From Robertmurraya dakarensis (GTDB lineage Bacteria > Bacillota > Bacilli > Bacillales > Cytobacillaceae), in contig NZ_LT707409.1 of NCBI RefSeq assembly GCF_900156875.1, forward strand, positions 1,528,046 through 1,592,045: DNA of 64,000 nucleotides. Reading direction: 5' to 3'. Of this stretch, positions 370-10,244 are shown piece after piece. The notes beneath the pieces are model-generated. The model was not told the origin of the DNA, ran no database searches, and worked only from the letters and a program-made list of their open reading frames with translations. The position numbers and the translations under genes are program-made. The stretch's first letter is position 1, and every line of letters starts with the position of its first letter.

Positions 370-1575
370 TTATCTTATGGAATCAATAACATCTTGAGGG
401 ATGTCTTCGTCCTTTTCATAATAGTGAATTTCGCCATCTAGCACGATTCCAGTGATACTCTTGATTGAGTTTTCTCCTTTTTCGTTAAATTGGTAATTAC
501 CCATTAAGCCATCAAAATTACTTGCTCGAATTGCCTCTTGTAATTTTTCTTTATCTGTCGCTGAACCAGCTCGTTCAAAGGCATCTTTAAGTAGATAAAT
601 AGAATCACGGCCAGAATAATGGAATGAGTTCACAAGCTCAGGTTCTTCAAATTTTGCTCTAAATGCCTTATGGTCTTCAGCATCTACCCGGCCGGAACGA
701 GAACCGCCAACTAAACCGTGAGTGTATTCAGGAGGTAATATTTTAATCATTTCTTCAAGTGCTCCACCTGCCCCATCTCTAACTGGGATCTTAATGCCCT
801 TTTCTTTCGCTTGTTTTAAAAGATTGACGAACGATTCAATCTGCGCAACAGCAAATATTACCTCAGCATCAGTTGCAGCCACTTTATCTAGCATCGTTCC
901 AAATTCATGCTGTGTGGGTGCGAATGCTTCCTGGAAGACAATCTCGATATCATTTTCGGCAAACGCTTTGTTAACAGCTTCAGCCGTAGCCATCCCGAAC
1001 TCATCGTTAAAATGAAGCATAGCTACTTTTTTATAATCAAAATTCTTCATGCCATCAACATATTTTTGAATGGCCATAATCGTTTGACTTGAAGCAGATG
1101 TGAAATAATTTGCGCCCATATTAGTTAGTACAGGTGCCGCAGCGACAGCCGTTAACATAGGTGTTTTGTTTCGCTCAGCAATTGGAATCATCGCGGCTGT
1201 TTCTGTACTTGTCGAAGCCCCGATAACTGCCATTACTTTATCTTGCTGAATTAATCTTTCAGTAGCTGCAGTGGCCGACTCAGCTTTTCCTTCCGTGTCG
1301 TAGTGGACCAGCTCAAATTTATAAGATTTATCGCCAATCTTTACCCCGCCGCTTTCATTAATTTCTTCAACCGCAACTCTTTGAGCAGCAAGCGAGTCTT
1401 GACCAGTTTTTGCAATTGCACCGCTTGTAGCAACTGCAATTCCAATTTTAATCGTATCTCCTCCATCCCCTGAACCACCTTTTCCTCCTGTTTCCGATGA
1501 TCCACTGCAGCCTGTAAAAACCAAAAGTACAAATGCCATTAAGCCTGCGAGTAGAGATAACTTTCGTTTTCCCAT
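370..1575 (-). CDS. ABC transporter substrate-binding lipoprotein (LivJ/type-1 periplasmic binding protein)
   Basis: A 401-residue secreted lipoprotein. The N-terminus has KRK, a hydrophobic run and the lipobox VFTGC with the acylated cysteine at residue 23, followed by a Ser/Gly linker. The remainder is a Periplas_BP_6 (LivJ-like) domain with the IKIGIAVATSGAIAKTGQDS start and the usual two-lobe layout. It should capture a small ligand outside the membrane and hand it to the LivH-type permease encoded just downstream. The start is supported by an AGGGGGA ribosome site. A CcpA-type operator lies upstream at 1655-1668. Leucine/isoleucine/valine is the family default, but homologues beside CoA-ligase genes often carry other carboxylates, so specificity is open. 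Confidence 0.88.
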   Translation of the reverse strand: MGKRKLSLLAGLMAFVLLVFTGCSGSSETGGKGGSGDGGDTIKIGIAVATSGAIAKTGQDSLAAQRVAVEEINESGGVKIGDKSYKFELVHYDTEGKAESATAATERLIQQDKVMAVIGASTSTETAAMIPIAERNKTPMLTAVAAAPVLTNMGANYFTSASSQTIMAIQKYVDGMKNFDYKKVAMLHFNDEFGMATAEAVNKAFAENDIEIVFQEAFAPTQHEFGTMLDKVAATDAEVIFAVAQIESFVNLLKQAKEKGIKIPVRDGAGGALEEMIKILPPEYTHGLVGGSRSGRVDAEDHKAFRAKFEEPELVNSFHYSGRDSIYLLKDAFERAGSATDKEKLQEAIRASNFDGLMGNYQFNEKGENSIKSITGIVLDGEIHYYEKDEDIPQDVIDSIR

Positions 1576-1794: not shown

Positions 1795-3003
1795 TTAAAA
1801 ATTAGCTGGATCCCAAGATCCTCCCTCTTTATATTTTCTAATAATACGGCGTGCAATTGTTGCAGTATGCACTTCATCTGGACCATCATAAATTCGTGCA
1901 TATCTTGCTTCTCTGTACATTTTTTCTAATGGTGTATCAGCTGTTACACCCTTTGCACCATGTACCTGGATCGCTCTATCAATGACGTCATGAAGGACTT
2001 TTGCTCCATACACTTTGATCATTGCAATATCAATTCTTGCGTCTTCTCCTCTATCAATCTTCTTGGCAGCTTCAAATGTCATTAAGCGGGCAGACTGAAT
2101 TTCCGTAGCAGAATCTGCTATGAACTTTTGAATCATTTGTTTATCAGCCAGCAATGAACCATGTGCATAACGGTTAAGTGATCTTTCAACCATAAGATCG
2201 AATGCACGCTGTGCTTGCCCTAACCATCTCATGCAGTGATAAATCCGGCCTGGTCCAAGTCGTTTTTGTGCAATTACAAATCCTTCCCCGCGTTCTCCAA
2301 GTAAATTTTCTTTAGGAACTCTAACATTTGTTAGGCGGATTTCACAGTGTGCACCGTGTTCATGCCCCATTGTCGGAACCACTCTGACAATTTCATAACC
2401 AGGTGTGTTCGTTGGAACGATGATCATTGATGCTCTTCTATGTCTGCTTTCCTCATTTGGTTCTGTTACACAGAACATCGTCGTGAACGCAGCTCTAGTT
2501 GCCCCAGTCGTAAACCACTTGTGAGCGTTAATTACCCATTCGTCTCCATCTAGATAAGCAGTTGATTGAATCAATGTCGGGTCAGACCCTGCTACTTCAG
2601 GTTCAGTTAACCCTACAGATGGATTAATTTCCCCCCTAACCATAGGGTATAGCCATCTATCCTTTTGCTCTTGTGTTCCAAATAAATTCAGCATGGTAGC
2701 ATCTTGAGCAGTATGCGTTCCAAGCGAAGCCATCGCTGCCTCAGAACGACCTACCACTTCGTTAATGTAGACGTAGTCCATAAACTTTAGACCGCCGCCG
2801 CCAATTTCCTTTGGTAAGCCTAATGCCCATATTCCTTGCTCTTTTGCCTCTGCCTGCAAGCCTTTTAATATTTCGCGCCCCTCTATACGATCTTCAATGT
2901 CTTTTTCAACAGGAATGACCTTTTCATCAATAAATTTTCTAACCTTTTGACGAAGCTCAATTACTTCTTGACTCATACCATACTTCTTTTCGATTTCATT
3001 CAT
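1795..3003 (-). CDS. Acyl-CoA dehydrogenase family protein with an ACAD10/11-type DGPDEVH motif
   Basis: A 402-residue flavoprotein with the acyl-CoA dehydrogenase fold: helical N-domain, the FAD/substrate motif GLTEPEVAGSDP, the KWFTTGA strand and the C-terminal helical domain ending RIYDGPDEVHTATIARR (Y at residue 372). The usual E-G-T signature is replaced by D-G-P-D-E-V-H, as in eukaryotic ACAD10/ACAD11, which act after a fused kinase domain to remove phosphate from 4-phospho-acyl-CoA. Here two kinase-fold genes lie just upstream in the same operon, so a joint role in hydroxyacyl-CoA conversion is plausible (inference). The start follows a GGAGG site at good spacing. Ordinary alpha,beta-desaturation of an acyl-CoA is the alternative. 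Confidence 0.88.
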   Translation of the reverse strand: MNEIEKKYGMSQEVIELRQKVRKFIDEKVIPVEKDIEDRIEGREILKGLQAEAKEQGIWALGLPKEIGGGGLKFMDYVYINEVVGRSEAAMASLGTHTAQDATMLNLFGTQEQKDRWLYPMVRGEINPSVGLTEPEVAGSDPTLIQSTAYLDGDEWVINAHKWFTTGATRAAFTTMFCVTEPNEESRHRRASMIIVPTNTPGYEIVRVVPTMGHEHGAHCEIRLTNVRVPKENLLGERGEGFVIAQKRLGPGRIYHCMRWLGQAQRAFDLMVERSLNRYAHGSLLADKQMIQKFIADSATEIQSARLMTFEAAKKIDRGEDARIDIAMIKVYGAKVLHDVIDRAIQVHGAKGVTADTPLEKMYREARYARIYDGPDEVHTATIARRIIRKYKEGGSWDPANF

Positions 3004-3065
3004 TCTAAAAAACCTCCTAAAATTTTATCATTACTCTGATAATTAAATAGAAAGAATCTACTAAA

Positions 3066-3524
3066 TTATCGAACCAAACTCATTTCAATGTTCAACTGCT
3101 CGCGAACTTTTTCTCTTAAAGGTGTAATATAGGATTCCTGTATTTCAGGATTTCTATCATTCTCTTTATACAATTGCTGTATAAGCTGACATTGTATATC
3201 ATTTAACACTTTCCATTTTTCAGTGACATCTACTAATCCTTCTGTGTTTTTATAGGACTTCTCTAAAGAACCTTTCCAGTCTAGACTTGAAAATTGTCCG
3301 GAATCCTGCTCAAGCTTTTGGAATTGCTCCTCAAGATTCTCTTGGATCTTTGCAATAAGCTGCTCTTTTGGACTGATATTTTCAACCGTCCACATATCCA
3401 GATTCTTCAGGACTGATATTAAGGCAATGGCTTGTTCCTTTGCTACACCGTCTTCAAGCTCCGGAATAATAATCTCCTTTAATGCTTGATTTGCCGTCTT
3501 AAAGGTTAATTTTTTATCTAGCAT
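3066..3524 (-). CDS. Small helical protein between kinase and dehydrogenase genes (LvaB-position)
   Basis: A 152-residue soluble, mostly helical, acidic protein with no signal peptide or membrane segment. I do not recognise a catalytic motif. The N-terminal pattern (L-x-E-I-I-I-P-E-L-E-D-G-V-A then a helix) recalls the small partner proteins encoded next to APH-fold acyl-CoA kinases, such as LvaB in the Pseudomonas levulinate pathway; this is a weak pattern-level resemblance supported mainly by position. The gene is 11 bp downstream of one kinase gene and 62 bp upstream of the dehydrogenase gene, with an AGGAGG site before its ATG, so it is clearly part of the operon. Confidence 0.75.
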   Translation of the reverse strand: MLDKKLTFKTANQALKEIIIPELEDGVAKEQAIALISVLKNLDMWTVENISPKEQLIAKIQENLEEQFQKLEQDSGQFSSLDWKGSLEKSYKNTEGLVDVTEKWKVLNDIQCQLIQQLYKENDRNPEIQESYITPLREKVREQLNIEMSLVR

Positions 3525-3535
3525 GATAAGACCTC

Positions 3536-4570
3536 CTAATACCCTAATAATTCAGCTACCATGCCTCGCATCAATGGCCATCGGTATCCTTGACGGGCCA
3601 TTCTTAAATCTTGTGTCTGCCCCTTTGCAAAGGATGTACCAGCTGACTGTGAAATTAAAACAAATCGTACTTGGTGAAAAACTTCATAATAATGAACAAC
3701 TTTTTCGTCCACCTGCAAACCGGTTAATTTACTATAAGTTTCATAGAACATATCTCTGTCTAATAAGTAGCACAGAAGCGGAGAATCCATTCGATTTGAT
3801 TTTGCACAAACGTAGGCTACGTCTGCCATTGGATCCCCAATTTCTGCCGCCTCCCAGTCTAGTATCCCGGTAATTTCATTATTTTTATACAACAGGTTCC
3901 CCGTCCGGTAATCGTTATGTACGATCGAATATCTCTGTGCTGCAGGTTTATTTGCTTTAAGCCATTCTAAAGCATCTACCATAACAGGGTCAGGACTGAT
4001 TAAATATCTGTTGTACATCTCTTCGAGTCCCTTAATTTTACTATCAATATATCCATATGGTCCGACTGGTTCAGTAAAGTCCTTTGTAAAGCCTGCTTCT
4101 TGATAGTCTAAAAGATGCAGTTTTGCTAATAGTTCTACAAACTGCTGCGGGATGTGACCATCATCATGAGCCTGTTTTAGAAACTGCTGACCTTCTTTAG
4201 ACCAAGGCACATAGGCTGCCCCTTCCAGCTTATCCATCACAAAAAACGAGCCGCCGAGAATAGATTCATCTGTTTCATACCAGTGAACACCCGGTACGGG
4301 TAAATCACAATTCTTACTTAAAATATCTAAAAAATTATATTGATTATAGAAATTTTTGTTTTCGCGCATCAAGCCTCCTTTGTTCTGTTTTCGAATGGCA
4401 AAGCCCTTTTGATGGGTTTCACCATCAGATTCCCAATTCACATTGAAAATGAAGGCCTCATCTGACCAACCTGCAGATGGCTGCTTAAAATCTGATATCC
4501 TTAAGTTAACAGCACCCTCAAGCTTACTTTCAAAGTAAGATTTAAGGGCCTGTTTAGTAGTTTCTGACAT
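3536..4570 (-). CDS. APH-fold phosphotransferase, probable acyl-CoA-linked kinase (copy 1)
   Basis: A 344-residue aminoglycoside-phosphotransferase-fold kinase. The catalytic loop HNDYRTGN and the metal-binding ILDWEAAEIGDP motif are both present, so it should be an active ATP-dependent kinase. The start is set at the ATG at 4570, preceded by GGAGGGG; an upstream TTG would overlap that ribosome site. Relatives in this context (LvaA, the kinase half of ACAD10/11) phosphorylate the 4-hydroxyl of hydroxyacyl-CoA. A second kinase-fold gene lies 68 bp upstream, which may mean two substrates or a heteromer. Antibiotic modification is unlikely given the operon of acyl-CoA enzymes. Confidence 0.85.
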   Translation of the reverse strand: MSETTKQALKSYFESKLEGAVNLRISDFKQPSAGWSDEAFIFNVNWESDGETHQKGFAIRKQNKGGLMRENKNFYNQYNFLDILSKNCDLPVPGVHWYETDESILGGSFFVMDKLEGAAYVPWSKEGQQFLKQAHDDGHIPQQFVELLAKLHLLDYQEAGFTKDFTEPVGPYGYIDSKIKGLEEMYNRYLISPDPVMVDALEWLKANKPAAQRYSIVHNDYRTGNLLYKNNEITGILDWEAAEIGDPMADVAYVCAKSNRMDSPLLCYLLDRDMFYETYSKLTGLQVDEKVVHYYEVFHQVRFVLISQSAGTSFAKGQTQDLRMARQGYRWPLMRGMVAELLGY

Positions 4571-4638
4571 TCGCGCTATCCCCTCCAAAAATGATAATCG
4601 TATTATTCAATTGTGCAGGAATATCTCTCAATCTATTC

Positions 4639-5721
4639 TTAATATTTAGCTCCTGTATTTTCTAAAGCCCAGTCTGTAAGATTTCTTACAAACTCATCCA
4701 ATTTCGCAAATCTCTCATCACTTGTTTGGCCTTTTTTCCAGCGATAATACATCTGCTGCATAATAACAATGTGTTTGAAATAGCCAAATACGATATAATA
4801 ATTCATTTTGGACACATCTCGGCCGCTGACTTTTGAATATGTTTCAATAAATTCTCTTCTTGTCATAAATCCTGGTCTTGTTGTAATTGGGGTTTCGCCT
4901 CTTTGTGATTTGATAAAGTCTGGATCACTTGGTTCAAACCATAAAGCAAGTGCAGATGCAAGATCTGTTAAAGGATCCCCTACTGTACTCATCTCCCAAT
5001 CCAGCACTCCAGAAATTTGCGTTAGATCATCTTTATCAAACAATATATTCTTTAAATGAAAATCATAATGAATTAACGTCGCCGGCTGTGAAACCGGTCT
5101 GTTGTCTGTGATCCACTTAATTAACCGCTCCATTCCTGGCACATCATCCGTTTTAACGTTTTCATAACGGCCGATCCAGCCTTTAACCTGTCTCTCCAAG
5201 AACCCTTGTGGCTTCGTAAAGTTGACTATATCTGTTTTTGTATAATCAATTTCATGAAGCTTTGCCAGTGAATTGACCATTGTATTTGAAATTTGATGAT
5301 AGAGCTCTTTACTTCCGTCGCTGTGATCAGGCAGTGCTGATCCTAGTAAAACACCATTCAGCCTCTGCATGACATAAAATGGCGCACCAATTAAACTATC
5401 ATCTTCTATAAAGAAGTATGGCTTTGGTGCAAGTGGATAAACCGGATTAATGGCACTTAATACCCTATATTCTCGCTGCATGTCGTGAGCTCCTGTATTA
5501 ACAGGACCAAGCGGTGCTCTCCGCAAAACACCCTGCCATTCTCCTACTCTTAGCAAATACGTTAAATTAGAACTTCCGGCACTAAATTGCTCCACAACCA
5601 TGGGATCATTGCTTAATTCTGGAAGCTTCTTCCTAAGAAGCTCCTCTACCACTTCAACATTTAATTCTTCACCTTTACGAACGGAAATGGTATCTTCTAT
5701 GATTTTTTTATTCGTTGTCAT
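4639..5721 (-). CDS. APH-fold phosphotransferase, probable acyl-CoA-linked kinase (copy 2)
   Basis: A 360-residue APH-fold kinase, closer in feel to the ACAD10/11 and LvaA kinase domain: nucleotide-lobe FSAGSSNLTYLLR and VLRRAP, catalytic loop HYDFHLKN, and metal loop VLDWEMSTVGDPLTDLA. It lies 11 bp after the enoyl-CoA hydratase gene and shares its operon with a second, clearly divergent kinase. Together with the small protein and the DGPDEVH dehydrogenase it forms a possible hydroxyacyl-CoA phosphorylation/elimination module (inference from family knowledge). GGAGGA precedes the ATG. Confidence 0.86.
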   Translation of the reverse strand: MTTNKKIIEDTISVRKGEELNVEVVEELLRKKLPELSNDPMVVEQFSAGSSNLTYLLRVGEWQGVLRRAPLGPVNTGAHDMQREYRVLSAINPVYPLAPKPYFFIEDDSLIGAPFYVMQRLNGVLLGSALPDHSDGSKELYHQISNTMVNSLAKLHEIDYTKTDIVNFTKPQGFLERQVKGWIGRYENVKTDDVPGMERLIKWITDNRPVSQPATLIHYDFHLKNILFDKDDLTQISGVLDWEMSTVGDPLTDLASALALWFEPSDPDFIKSQRGETPITTRPGFMTRREFIETYSKVSGRDVSKMNYYIVFGYFKHIVIMQQMYYRWKKGQTSDERFAKLDEFVRNLTDWALENTGAKY

Positions 5722-5732
5722 GTTTTTCCTCC

Positions 5733-6584
5733 TTAATTAGATTTTGCCTCATCCCACCATGGATAAAAGTCAGGCAGGTCTGTACTTGGCTTCATAGTAA
5801 AATTTGGTTTACGCTTTTCTAAAAAGGAAGCAATCCCTTCTTTAGCATCAACCTGTCTAGAAGCCCATAAATTCCCTTTAGATTCAATTTTATGGGACTC
5901 CATTGGGTGAGTTTCACCAAGCATTTTCCAAAATAAATTTCTTGATAATGCAATTGCTGTAGCAGAAGTATTTTCGGCAATTTTTTCTGCTAATGCTCTA
6001 GCTGTTGGCAGCAGCTCTTCAGGTGGAACCACTTTGCTGACAAGGCCGCTTTCTAGAGCTTCTTCGGGTGAAATAAAATCTCCCGTATAGACCCATTCTA
6101 ACGCCTTGCTAATTCCAACTATTTTCGGTAGAAACCAACCGCTGGCGGCTTCCGGTAATATCCCTCTTCTTGTGAAAATAAAGCCAATTTTAGAATTAGT
6201 TGAACAAATGCGAATGTCCATTGGCAAGGCCAAAGTAATTCCTACCCCTACAGCAGGACCATTGATTGCGGCAATAATCGGTTTCTTCAAGTTAAATAAT
6301 TTGAATACGAAACCTCCTCCTCTTTCTTCCGAATCGTCTGATTTACCCGAGAAATAATCCTCTTCAATTGAACTAGTTCCTTTTCCTAAATCAGCACCAG
6401 AACAAAAGGCTCTGCCTTCCCCAGTGACAATTACTACTCTAATGTCATCATTGTTGTCAGCATAATCTAAGGCTTCTGTGAATTCCTTAGACATTTGTGG
6501 ATTAAACGCATTTAACTTTTCAGGACGATTTAACGTGATGGTTAACACGCGGTTAGAAACATCACACTTAATTGTTTCGTACAT
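5733..6584 (-). CDS. Enoyl-CoA hydratase/isomerase family protein
   Basis: A 283-residue crotonase-fold enzyme. The oxyanion-hole segments GRAFCSGADLG and INGPAVGVGI are present, as is the RRGILPEAASGWFLP region that supplies the catalytic glutamate in hydratases. It likely hydrates an enoyl-CoA made by the dehydrogenase encoded in the same operon. It follows an acyl-CoA ligase gene after 30 bp and is followed by the kinase genes, so its product is placed in the middle of a CoA-thioester degradation route. Isomerase or hydrolase activity cannot be ruled out from sequence. Confidence 0.88.
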   Translation of the reverse strand: MYETIKCDVSNRVLTITLNRPEKLNAFNPQMSKEFTEALDYADNNDDIRVVIVTGEGRAFCSGADLGKGTSSIEEDYFSGKSDDSEERGGGFVFKLFNLKKPIIAAINGPAVGVGITLALPMDIRICSTNSKIGFIFTRRGILPEAASGWFLPKIVGISKALEWVYTGDFISPEEALESGLVSKVVPPEELLPTARALAEKIAENTSATAIALSRNLFWKMLGETHPMESHKIESKGNLWASRQVDAKEGIASFLEKRKPNFTMKPSTDLPDFYPWWDEAKSN

Positions 6585-6614
6585 CCTATTTCCCCCTCAT
6601 CCTCAAAATTGGGA

Positions 6615-8204
6615 TCATATTCGTAATTGATGCTTTAATACCTTCCCTGACGCGTTTTTCGGGAGCTCATCAATAAATTCATAAAATTCAGGAATCTTAA
6701 AACGCGCCAAATGTTGGGCACAATAGCTGCGAATTGCTTCCTGATCTTGTTCATTTAAAGAGTCTGAAACGACAAAAGCCTTTACTCTCTCTCCATAGAT
6801 TTCATCCGGAACACCTACTACTGCAGCCTCTAGGATATCGGAATGTTTCTTTAAAACATCCTCAACTTCAATAGAAAATATTTTTTCGCCGCCACGGTTA
6901 ATCATGTCTTTCTTCCGATCGAGAATATAGACAAAACCATCTTCATCGATTTTCGCGATATCGCCAGATCGCCAGTATCCATCTACAAAGGAAGTTTTAT
7001 TTGCCTCCGGATTCTCCCAATAGCCGCCGATCACCATCGGACCTTTAATTAATAACTCTCCCTCTTGATTTGGACCGAGTTCACGATCATTTGTATCAAT
7101 GACCATAATATCTGCCGTCTCGACAGGAAGGCCAACAGAACTCGCTTTGCTCATTGGATAATGATCTGGCATAATCGTAGTCGGTGAAGTCGTTTCCGTT
7201 GCCCCATACACATTGTGCAGTGTGGCGTTCGGAAAAATTCTTTTTAGCATTTCTAATGTATGCTGGTAGATTGGTGAACCGCCAAAGCCAACTCTTTTAA
7301 CAAAATCAAAAGAGTACTCCTCTAGAAGCGGGCTCGTCGCCATCATCGCATAGATCGTTGGGACATTGCTTTGAACATTGATTTTGTAGTCATAGCTTTG
7401 TTTAATGTATTTTTCATTTTGATATTTTTTAATAATCAGCATGGAACCGCCGATATAGACGCTTTGCAGAAATCTGGCCACTAGTCCTGTTACATGGAAA
7501 AAAGGAACTGCCAGGATCGATCTTACATTTTCATCACCCTTAAATGCCCGCTGATAATGCATGACAGAATGAATGACATTAATATGACTAATCACCGCAC
7601 CCTTTGGGCGCCCTGTTGTTCCTGAAGTATATAAAATAAAAGCCGGGTCCAGTTCATTTACTTCCACATCTATTAGCGGGTTTTGCTCAGCAAGTAAGCC
7701 TGCTAAACTATCATAATCTGTTGTTTTCTCGCCAATTGAAACAATGCTTCTTGTGTAAGGTTCTGCTGCCTGAAAATTCTTCTTACAATCTTCTACTACC
7801 GGAAGCAAGTCTTGATCACATAAGAGCACCTTTGGCCTTGAATTGCTCAGGACAAACGCAACTTCCGGTGTCCTTAACTTTGTGTTAACGGGGACCATAA
7901 TCGTCCCTGATTTAACACAAGCCATCACGATAATGGCAAACTCAAAACTATTTCCCAGCAATGTAGCAATTCGGTCTCCTTTTTTAATTCCGTACTTGGA
8001 TTGCAATGAAGCTATTAATCTATCTGATTTTTCATCGATTTCTTTGTAAGTAATCTTGTCATCATCCAAATAAAGGGCATCTTTATTTCCATGTTTTGAT
8101 ACGGTATTTTTAAAAAAGTCCTTTATTGATGATGGTCTTTCGGCAAAAACCTTAATTCCCTCTCTTCCGAAAAGAGAGACCCTTTTAATATCTGTATCAA
8201 TCAA
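6615..8204 (-). CDS. Class I adenylate-forming acyl-CoA ligase (FadD-like, copy 1)
   Basis: A 529-residue AMP-forming ligase. The nucleotide loop LYTSGTTGRPKG, the YGATETTSP motif, the YWRSGDIAKIDEDG hinge and the C-terminal catalytic-lysine segment PKNASGKVLK are all intact. It should activate a carboxylic acid to its CoA thioester with ATP. The start is a TTG (8204) with a GGGGA sequence upstream; no better in-frame start is visible. It lies 55 bp downstream of a second, divergent ligase gene, suggesting that two acids, or an acid and its product, are activated in the pathway. Confidence 0.88.
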   Translation of the reverse strand: MIDTDIKRVSLFGREGIKVFAERPSSIKDFFKNTVSKHGNKDALYLDDDKITYKEIDEKSDRLIASLQSKYGIKKGDRIATLLGNSFEFAIIVMACVKSGTIMVPVNTKLRTPEVAFVLSNSRPKVLLCDQDLLPVVEDCKKNFQAAEPYTRSIVSIGEKTTDYDSLAGLLAEQNPLIDVEVNELDPAFILYTSGTTGRPKGAVISHINVIHSVMHYQRAFKGDENVRSILAVPFFHVTGLVARFLQSVYIGGSMLIIKKYQNEKYIKQSYDYKINVQSNVPTIYAMMATSPLLEEYSFDFVKRVGFGGSPIYQHTLEMLKRIFPNATLHNVYGATETTSPTTIMPDHYPMSKASSVGLPVETADIMVIDTNDRELGPNQEGELLIKGPMVIGGYWENPEANKTSFVDGYWRSGDIAKIDEDGFVYILDRKKDMINRGGEKIFSIEVEDVLKKHSDILEAAVVGVPDEIYGERVKAFVVSDSLNEQDQEAIRSYCAQHLARFKIPEFYEFIDELPKNASGKVLKHQLRI

Positions 8205-8259
8205 AAAGCTTCATCCCCTAATATTAGTTTGGTTACATAAAAGTTCGTAAAATACTTGT

Positions 8260-9828
8260 TTACGATTGCTTTGCTTTTACTTCATCACGAAGTATGCGCT
8301 TCAAAATTTTTCCTGACGGATTTCTTGGCAGTTCATCAAGAAATTCAACAAATTTTGGTTTCTTGTAAGAAGCTAAATGCTCGCGGCAGTGCTGTATGAC
8401 TTCTTCTGCTGTCATTGTTTTTCCTTCCTTCAAGACAACGTAAGCTTTCACACTTTCTCCCCATTCTGCATCAGGCACCCCGATCACAGCTACTTCAAGA
8501 ACAGCATCATGCTTATACAGAGCAGCCTCTACTTCTGCTGGATAAATATTTTCCCCGCCGCTAATGATCATATCCTTCTTTCGGTCAACGACATAAATAA
8601 AACCTTCCTCATCCATGCGCACCAAATCTCCGCTATGGAACCATCCGCCACTAAATGCTTCTGCTGTTGCTTCTGGATTTTTATAATAACCTTTCATCAC
8701 AGTAGGGCCACGGTAGATAATCTCTCCAATTTCTCCAACTGAAACATCATTCATATTCTCATCAACAACACGCACTTCAACATTTGTAACCGGCTGCCCT
8801 ACAGAATCGGTTTTTCTTAGTGAATCTTCTGGAAGTAAACAAGTTGTAGTTGGACTCATTTCTGTTTGACCAAAAGCATCGAATATACCGGCGTTCGGAA
8901 AATGATGCATGATTTTTTTCTTGATCTCTAGTGGACAAATAGCAGCCCCAGTTGAACAACGAAGAACTGATGTTGTGTCAAACTCATTAATATTTGGAAC
9001 CTGCATAACAAAATTCCACATGGCAGGCACTAAGAATAACCCCGTAATTTTTTCATTATGAATCGTTTCTAGCACTTTAACTGGACTAAATTCGCGGTGA
9101 ATATAGGTTGTTCCATTGACTGTACAGCTGATAAGTAAATTTCCAACGCCAGCGATGTGGAATAATGGCGTAACAGTTAATTGTCTATTTCCTCTGCTAA
9201 TCCTCGAATCAACTACACTGTTTAAAGCACTCATTTGCAAATTTTTGTGTGACAGAACCGCGCCCTTTGGATACCCTGTCGTTCCAGATGTGTAACAAAT
9301 CATACAATCATCTTCGTCATTGACAAGGCCATCAATGGATCGGTAGTTGACACTAGTTTGATAAATATTCTTATAGGGAATCATATCGGAAGACTCAACA
9401 TTTCCAATCACGACAATTTGCTCTACATTTGAAAGTTTATGTCTGATTGATTCAATCATTTCTACATATTCTTCTTCAATAAATAATATTTTCGTGTCTG
9501 AGTTATTTATAATATAAGCAAATTCTTCCGGTGCGAGCCTGAAATTAATCGGAACGCTAACCCCTCCGGCCAAAGCCGCAGCAAACATAATTTCTACAAA
9601 AGCTAAGTTATTTTTGGAGATCATTCCTACTTTTTCACCAATCTCAATCCCCTTGTTTTGGAGCCAGCCTGCTAAATGAAGAGTTCTTTCTTCAAGTTGT
9701 TTGTATGTAACTTTCTCATTTTCATAAACGAATGCAAGAACATTAGGCGTCTTATGGGCTCCTCTTCTTACCAATTCCCCTAATAATAGCTGGCGTGACA
9801 TTTGCAAGCTAGTTGTAGTCAATTCCAT
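8260..9828 (-). CDS. Class I adenylate-forming acyl-CoA ligase (FadD-like, copy 2), first gene of operon
   Basis: A 522-residue AMP-forming ligase with CYTSGTTGYPKG, FGQTEMSPT, the GWFHSGDLVRMDEEG hinge and the PRNPSGKILK catalytic-lysine region. It is the promoter-proximal gene of a seven-gene minus-strand operon that continues through 1795. The ATG follows AAAGGAGTG. Chain-length preference cannot be told from sequence; the sequence is distinct from the adjacent ligase and from the third ligase at 30636-32222, so the three probably differ in substrate. Confidence 0.88.
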   Translation of the reverse strand: MELTTTSLQMSRQLLLGELVRRGAHKTPNVLAFVYENEKVTYKQLEERTLHLAGWLQNKGIEIGEKVGMISKNNLAFVEIMFAAALAGGVSVPINFRLAPEEFAYIINNSDTKILFIEEEYVEMIESIRHKLSNVEQIVVIGNVESSDMIPYKNIYQTSVNYRSIDGLVNDEDDCMICYTSGTTGYPKGAVLSHKNLQMSALNSVVDSRISRGNRQLTVTPLFHIAGVGNLLISCTVNGTTYIHREFSPVKVLETIHNEKITGLFLVPAMWNFVMQVPNINEFDTTSVLRCSTGAAICPLEIKKKIMHHFPNAGIFDAFGQTEMSPTTTCLLPEDSLRKTDSVGQPVTNVEVRVVDENMNDVSVGEIGEIIYRGPTVMKGYYKNPEATAEAFSGGWFHSGDLVRMDEEGFIYVVDRKKDMIISGGENIYPAEVEAALYKHDAVLEVAVIGVPDAEWGESVKAYVVLKEGKTMTAEEVIQHCREHLASYKKPKFVEFLDELPRNPSGKILKRILRDEVKAKQS

Positions 9829-10211: not shown

Positions 10212-10244
10212 AGAAAACATTGGAAGTAAGATCCAATGTTTTCT
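10212..10244 (-). terminator. Terminator hairpin overlapping the fabF stop codon
   Basis: A perfect 13-bp stem (10212-10224 with 10232-10244) and 7-nt loop. The far edge of the stem overlaps the fabF stop codon by two bases. The minus-strand sequence after it is pyrimidine-rich (CTCTTT) rather than a clean U-run. Confidence 0.6.

Follow-up and report, generated by a model that had tools for sequence, protein, structure and literature searches.

We analysed a window of 64,000 nucleotides from Robertmurraya dakarensis (contig NZ_LT707409.1), in which seven genes lie on the minus strand between positions 9828 and 1795 in the order LIG1, LIG2, ECH, K1, K2, P152, and ACAD. LIG1 (8260–9828, 522 aa) and LIG2 (6615–8204, 529 aa) encode AMP-forming acyl-CoA ligases. 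Both match PF00501 and PF13193, LIG1 also exceeds the cut-off of NCBIfam NF004837, and the best NCBIfam matches of both are general fatty-acyl ligase models. ECH (5733–6584, 283 aa) is an enoyl-CoA hydratase/isomerase (PF00378, ECH_1; NCBIfam NF006109 with 385 bits, cut-off 320). K1 (4639–5721, 360 aa; PF01636, E 2e-43) is an APH-fold kinase of the solo (ACAD10/11) type and a putative 4-hydroxyacyl-CoA kinase. K2 (3536–4588; PF01636, E 7e-29) is an APH-fold kinase of a partner type; its open reading frame (ORF) of 350 aa is listed from a TTG at 4588, and the translation makes the in-frame ATG at 4570 the likelier start. P152 (3066–3524, 152 aa) is a small protein without a Pfam or NCBIfam family over cut-off. 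The last gene, ACAD (1795–3003, 402 aa), encodes an acyl-CoA dehydrogenase (ACAD) of the LvaC/ACAD10-11 type with three domains (Pfam), a putative 4-phosphoacyl-CoA eliminating enzyme. An initial annotation had described seven co-directional genes of this kind, and the ORFs and Pfam matches confirm it. The intergenic gaps are 55, 30, 11, 50, 11, and 62 bases; ribosome-binding sites look clear ahead of LIG1, ECH, K1, P152, and ACAD and weak ahead of LIG2. The full two-kinase order LIG1-K1-K2-P152-ACAD was also found in Neobacillus citreus (locus L044), with identities of 77, 72, 76, 53, and 86%; therefore, the arrangement is not due to chance. LIG1 is the conserved first gene, since an orthologue of 74–77% heads the set in N. 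citreus and in the genome G014, while LIG2 was not found between LIG1 and K1 in the N. citreus set. Judged from these sequences, the operon is best read as a variant of the known kinase/ACAD route.

The sequences place K1 and K2 in separate kinase lineages. In the PDB, K1 matches 9o56 with 420 bits and ACAD11 with 145 bits, and it forms one clade with the kinase domain of ACAD11 in two trees (support 100/100). It has the arginine beside the αC glutamate, the equivalent of Arg176, the catalytic Asp and Asn, and the DWE motif. K2 lies outside this solo clade in both trees that include ACAD11, and it lacks both of the CoA arginines of ACAD11 as well as the αC glutamate. Kinases from Bacillota and Thermocrispum form a clade with K2 (100/98; 96/98 with two distant outgroups) that is distinct from the LvaA clade (100/99; 91/76 with the outgroups), and the trees leave the branching order of the lineages outside the solo clade undecided. 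When the outgroup consists of two distantly related APH proteins from this genome, whose rows in the alignment are long and poorly filled, K1 and K2 remain with the ACAD11/LvaA set. For both kinases, ACAD11 and its kin rank above the aminoglycoside kinases in the PDB, and the solved APH-like kinases 9o56, 3dxp, 3ats, and 9fsg are their sequence relatives. The placement in unrelated APH families that would have spoken against the initial annotation was thus not seen, and the intact catalytic loops that it reported are present in both proteins, each of which keeps the catalytic Asp, the Asn, and the aspartate of DWE.

Two arginines of the ACAD11 kinase have been described as contacting CoA (PMC12440821). 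The R86 of that paper does not agree with the numbering of the PDB chain, in which the R-E pair stands at positions 83–84, and we used the arginine beside the αC glutamate, in line with the description in its text. The LvaA, LvaB, and LvaC references come from a Pseudomonas plasmid locus (L038), not from strain KT2440; its gene order (regulator, kinase, annotated lvaB, ACAD, short-chain dehydrogenase (SDR), ligase, DUF485, symporter) fits the published description of the lva operon (PMC6692424). Both CoA arginines are present in all 11 solo kinases, in none of the 7 LvaA-type kinases, in 1 of the 8 kinases of the K2 clade, and in 1 of 83 other K2-like kinases. The first three groups retain the catalytic Asp, the catalytic Asn, and the DWE Asp throughout (11/11, 7/7, and 8/8), and in the last group each of these residues is kept in 80/83.

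The kinases without these arginines usually have a small protein encoded next to them. An adjacent P152- or DUF6285-like ORF was detected for 78 of 91 K2-like kinases (80 among the matches listed in a scan of named genomes, and 11 others) at a cut of 1e-4, where the best background or reversed control reached 9.2e-3; the profile behind this count, the second iterative one, had been built up from adjacent ORFs of this very kind. An earlier iterative profile of the partners was discarded because of contamination by wrong-frame ORFs of GC-rich genomes. The 13 misses include one locus (L025) in which an annotated partner lies upstream and was overlooked by the ORF caller. Among the matches listed, the K2-like kinases with P152-like partners come from Bacillota, Actinomycetota, Chloroflexi, Proteobacteria, and haloarchaea. 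For the LvaA-type kinases, an annotated DUF6285/LvaB neighbour was found in 6 of 7 cases. In a search of 405 ORFs from the window and nine solo-kinase loci, the profiles detect only the P152 of the window and that of L019, which adjoins a K2 of its own; the other matches are weak (0.006 or worse) and fall on unrelated window ORFs. Because the CoA arginines are found in the solo kinases and almost never in the partnered ones, the distribution suggests that CoA binding has passed to the partner. A gene for a histidine phosphatase directly follows the kinase or the kinase-DUF6285 pair in Thermus, Azoarcus, Azospirillum, and Pseudoalteromonas (L028, L032, L035, and L042), possibly as a phosphate-removing safety valve. 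On contig C10 (L012:4583-12886), the R. dakarensis genome also contains another K2-like kinase, whose partner has 156 aa. That cluster includes a protein like the small chain of ribonucleotide reductase (R2-like), two proteins that look like it at the N-terminus, a 275-aa protein without a Pfam family, and ORFs that resemble aldehyde and alcohol dehydrogenases (named by eye).

The comparison of family profiles supports P152 as a remote counterpart of LvaB, at the profile level only. LvaB of the plasmid locus matches DUF6285 (PF19802) with an E value of 4.8e-24. Aligned by hhalign, the P152 family (67 rows) and DUF6285 (16 rows) gave a probability of 95.8% (E 8e-9) over 129 columns, which is most of the length of P152, and reversed controls gave 0.1 and 0.2%. 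DUF6285-like rows had been excluded from the P152 training, and the sets had been cleaned of duplicates and of one wrong-frame row (L120); before the cleaning, the value was 93.3%. A value of 97.3% was discarded because the second iterative profile had been trained on rows that proved to be real DUF6285 proteins, and alignment A7 was dropped because it held the same wrong-frame row, with A8 taking its place. AlphaFold2 predicts six confident helices for P152 (pLDDT 90.9) and five for a DUF6285 member (pLDDT 85.3). The search for matching folds among solved structures gave no usable result (best E 0.47 for P152 and 1.7 for the DUF6285 member), and a PDB sequence search with P152 gave one chance match (E 0.37). 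P152 shares with LvaB its small size, its predicted all-helical fold, and a gene position directly after an APH-fold kinase. P152 appears to belong to an undescribed family encoded beside K2-like kinases; DUF6285 is not mentioned in the literature that we searched.

The closest solved relative of the window ACAD in the PDB is ACAD11 (256 bits). In mouse ACAD11, R626, H634, R637, and Asp753 bind and release the phosphate, and mutants have also been described (PMC12440821). At the equivalents of R626, R631, H634, R637, and D753, 21 of 24 aligned rows read RRHRD, including the window ACAD, LvaC, and ACAD11. The remaining three, from ordinary ACADs, share only R631 with them and differ at the other four positions. 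The window ACAD contains the D-G-P-D-E-V-H string noted in the initial annotation, the first D of which aligns with the catalytic Asp of ACAD11. In Nonomuraea, the gene for an ACAD of the window clade (58%) directly adjoins that for an LvaA-type kinase, and about 4 kb away there is a DUF6285-like ORF. The R. dakarensis genome has 48 ACAD-like matches, with a dense run of acyl-CoA dehydrogenases on contig C11 at about 1.35–1.70 Mb, and seven of those aligned are of the ACAD10/11 type. A stand-alone ACAD that is 84% identical to the window ACAD and carries an HCMR motif occurs in two genera (L021:9461-10672, C11:126460-127668 of the same genome; L146:8983-10197 in G014). It adjoins genes like those of TRAP transporters (by eye) and has no kinase-like neighbour.

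We propose that the seven genes probably form a catabolic operon that feeds a 4-hydroxy acid into β-oxidation by a kinase/ACAD route, with K2-P152-ACAD as the core and K1 as an addition. A CoA ligase would produce the 4-hydroxyacyl-CoA, and its 4-hydroxyl group would be phosphorylated by K2 with P152, and by K1. The ACAD-fold enzyme, with bound FAD, would then eliminate the phosphate to yield a 2-enoyl-CoA with no net oxidation, which is the reaction reported for ACAD10 and ACAD11 (PMC12440821, PMC11342911), and ECH and general β-oxidation genes would take over from there. The phosphorylation-elimination logic of the initial annotation is supported by the ACAD signature, by ACAD11 as the best solved relative, by the K1-ACAD11 clade, and by the gene order. 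Since the profiles tie P152 remotely to LvaB, the core would repeat the order lvaA-lvaB-lvaC, with K2 working together with its small helical partner. The sequences themselves show the genes, their active-site residues, the two kinase lineages, the pairing of K2-like kinases with P152-like genes, and the occurrence of P152 together with this ACAD, whereas we infer the activities, a K2-P152 complex, a role of P152 in CoA binding, and the substrate. In common with ACAD10, ACAD11, and their bacterial split orthologues, K1 has the kinase signature with both CoA arginines and the window ACAD has the phosphate-binding residues; in contrast to them, the window has separate polypeptides, a second kinase of the partner type, and a changed loop around Pro463. 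K1 would be an additional kinase, of the solo type and the ACAD10/11 lineage, that is present in the operon of only some species, and it probably widens the range of substrates or stereoisomers. The ACAD10 kinase has an approximately fourfold preference for the R isomer (PMC11342911); therefore, as a guess by analogy, the two kinases could cover two isomers. A broader and tentative possibility is that 4-hydroxyacyl-CoA kinases comprise two mechanistic classes, a solo class with its own CoA arginines and a partnered class that lacks them and needs a small helical subunit. In that case, a single superfamily of such subunits, with LvaB and the P152 family as branches, might supply a CoA clamp, and the window operon might hold both classes for different stereoisomers or substrates.

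LvaB is needed for the growth of Pseudomonas putida on levulinate, yet the published account lists it as a hypothetical protein with LvaA as its interaction partner (PMC6692424). The correlation between arginines and partners gives LvaB a concrete candidate function, which would extend to the unnamed P152 family. With both kinase classes together, the operon would also offer a compact system in bacteria for the chemistry by which ACAD10/11 break down 4-hydroxy acids in mammals. What appears to be new here is the presence of two kinds of kinase in one operon, one of them with a small partner of an undescribed family. The literature searched, in which Rand 2017 is known to us second-hand only, contains no description of a two-kinase operon or of a CoA role of LvaB.

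Several results, given here and in the following paragraphs, weigh against this proposal. A tree without ACAD11 places the K2 clade nearer to the solo clade (90/87), and the BLAST scores of K2 with K1 (118 bits) and with a Thermus LvaA-type kinase (103 bits) are about equal. The phylogeny that the initial annotation called for joins K1 to the ACAD11 kinase domain, but a grouping of K2 with LvaA is not borne out by the trees. A strict P152 profile, for which the top background ORF scored 7.7e-3 and the top reversed sequence 1.7e-2, clearly finds, among six DUF6285 proteins used as references, only those of Thermus (3.8e-9) and Azoarcus (4.1e-6). The Massilia protein (2.9e-3) is near the controls, and LvaB (0.08) and the proteins of Azospirillum (0.67) and Sulfitobacter (7.9) are missed. 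A narrow profile comparison of six against six sequences gave 0.56%, BLASTP showed no similarity of P152 to DUF6285 or LvaB, and the PF19802 model matches neither P152 nor any other protein of the genome. The proposed link of the 152-aa protein to the LvaB family thus stands for the family profiles and fails for PF19802, for the narrow comparison, and for LvaB alone. The LvaA-type kinase of Azotobacter has only a 75-aa hypothetical neighbour and no annotated DUF6285, and the cluster of P. citronellolis is reported to have an lvaA homologue but no lvaB (PMC6692424).

It is unlikely, but deserves consideration, that K2-P152 acts on another hydroxylated CoA ester or hydroxyl position than the ACAD, which K1 alone would serve. 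Only 11 of 90 K2-like loci have an ACAD with both ACAD10/11 motifs within the stretch examined, and 79 have none. In four genomes of the genus g88, the ACAD lies on other contigs or half a megabase from K2-P152. The genomes with P152 hold further K1-type kinases (42–52%) that could serve the ACAD, and the additional pair of a K2-like kinase and a 156-aa protein beside the R2-like protein would also fit another substrate. However, P152 and the ACAD occur together. P152 is present in 4 of 151 genomes of the family and in 6 of 397 of the order, and the same six order genomes, from 3 of 136 genera, also hold a close ACAD orthologue (E ≤ 1e-150). Of the 151 family genomes, 10 have ACAD matches at E ≤ 1e-100, and the identity reaches at least 78% in five, namely the four P152 genomes and G105. 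All eight further P152 genomes carry an ACAD of 78–86% identity, which is adjacent to or within about 10 kb of K2-P152 in G014, G128, G137, and G157, whereas a K1 relative above 60% is found in just two of the eight, G014 (74%) and G316 (66%). K1 is tied less tightly than ACAD to P152. Moreover, K2-P152-ACAD is contiguous in G014 without an adjacent K1, and in G157 the same three genes are followed by a K1-type gene of only 52%. In G105 (L147:9277-10310), a fragment of the LIG1 start abuts an ACAD fragment and K1, K2, and P152 are missing between them, apparently as a natural deletion remnant, although an assembly error is also conceivable.

A true Gram-positive levulinate (lva) operon would have ligases that activate levulinate, a reductase elsewhere that gives 4-hydroxyvaleryl-CoA, and redundant kinases. 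The match of the gene order to lvaA-lvaB-lvaC is consistent with it, as are a short-chain dehydrogenase and a thiolase about 13–15 kb downstream of the operon. We nevertheless consider it improbable. No ketoreductase (LvaD-type SDR) is found among the seven genes by the ORF list and Pfam, while an SDR gene follows the ACAD in the Pseudomonas plasmid operon, and the fatty-acyl character of the ligase matches also argues against levulinate. The ACADs of the two systems agree in their phosphate-binding residues but are only 35% identical. In the ACAD tree, the window ACAD groups with a Rhodococcus relative (100/99) and falls on the side of ACAD11, not with LvaC (joining node 83/89). Its clade (five rows, one of them from Rhodococcus) lacks the APDxGN loop that is present in the other 16 rows of the type, and the Nonomuraea relative lacks it too. 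At the position of a conserved proline that was singled out in human ACAD11 (Pro463; PMC11342911), which by our reckoning is shifted by one from the mouse numbering, the window ACAD has Met; the proline is missing across its clade and from four further ACADs of the same type outside it. Because the phosphate residues are kept while the APDxGN loop and Pro463 are changed, we read the clade as having the same chemistry with a different acyl pocket. Levulinate, which the initial annotation had offered as a substrate, is therefore not favoured, given the missing reductase and the loop that differs from those of LvaC and ACAD11. The window operon further differs from lvaABC in its extra solo kinase, in the clade of K2 and its missing αC glutamate, and in a partner of 152 aa instead of 118 aa that is outside Pfam DUF6285. 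The window set is followed by a gene for an ABC-type binding protein, in contrast to the DUF485 and symporter genes of the lva operon.

A reading of K2 as a degenerate kinase and of P152 as a regulator, which together would modulate K1 or the ACAD without catalysis, seems very unlikely. The αC glutamate is indeed replaced in 8/8 kinases of the K2 clade, but all eight retain the three catalytic residues, and K2-P152 occurs without an adjacent K1 in G014 and in the four g88 genomes. An ordinary desaturase with unrelated kinases as neighbours would suit the complete three-domain ACAD fold and the many ACAD-like matches in the genome, but this is scarcely credible with the phosphate-binding Arg/His/Arg and the Asp base kept, which differ in the three ordinary ACAD rows.

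Under the proposed 4-hydroxy acid operon, the transcription unit likely has its upstream boundary at a hairpin of 13 pairs with a T-rich tail between fabF and LIG1 (10212–10244, both strands), which is a match to a terminator-like consensus only. Downstream, a gene for an ABC substrate-binding protein of the branched-chain-amino-acid type (370–1575, minus strand; PF13458) may be a further part; since a gap of 219 bases separates it from ACAD, its membership in the operon is no more than possible. Beyond the window, it is followed by permease-like and ATPase-like genes (neighbours in L013, named by eye). The promoter scans gave no signal, with 25 matches to the sigma-54 pattern (26.9 expected) and 27 to the sigma-70 pattern (26.6 expected). 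About 10 kb downstream of the operon, there is a gene for a sigma-54 activator with CBS and PAS domains (L013:5916-8006). In four g88 loci (L155, L157, L158, and L159), a protein of 694–707 aa is encoded beside K2-P152, and it resembles this sigma-54 activator by size and context only.

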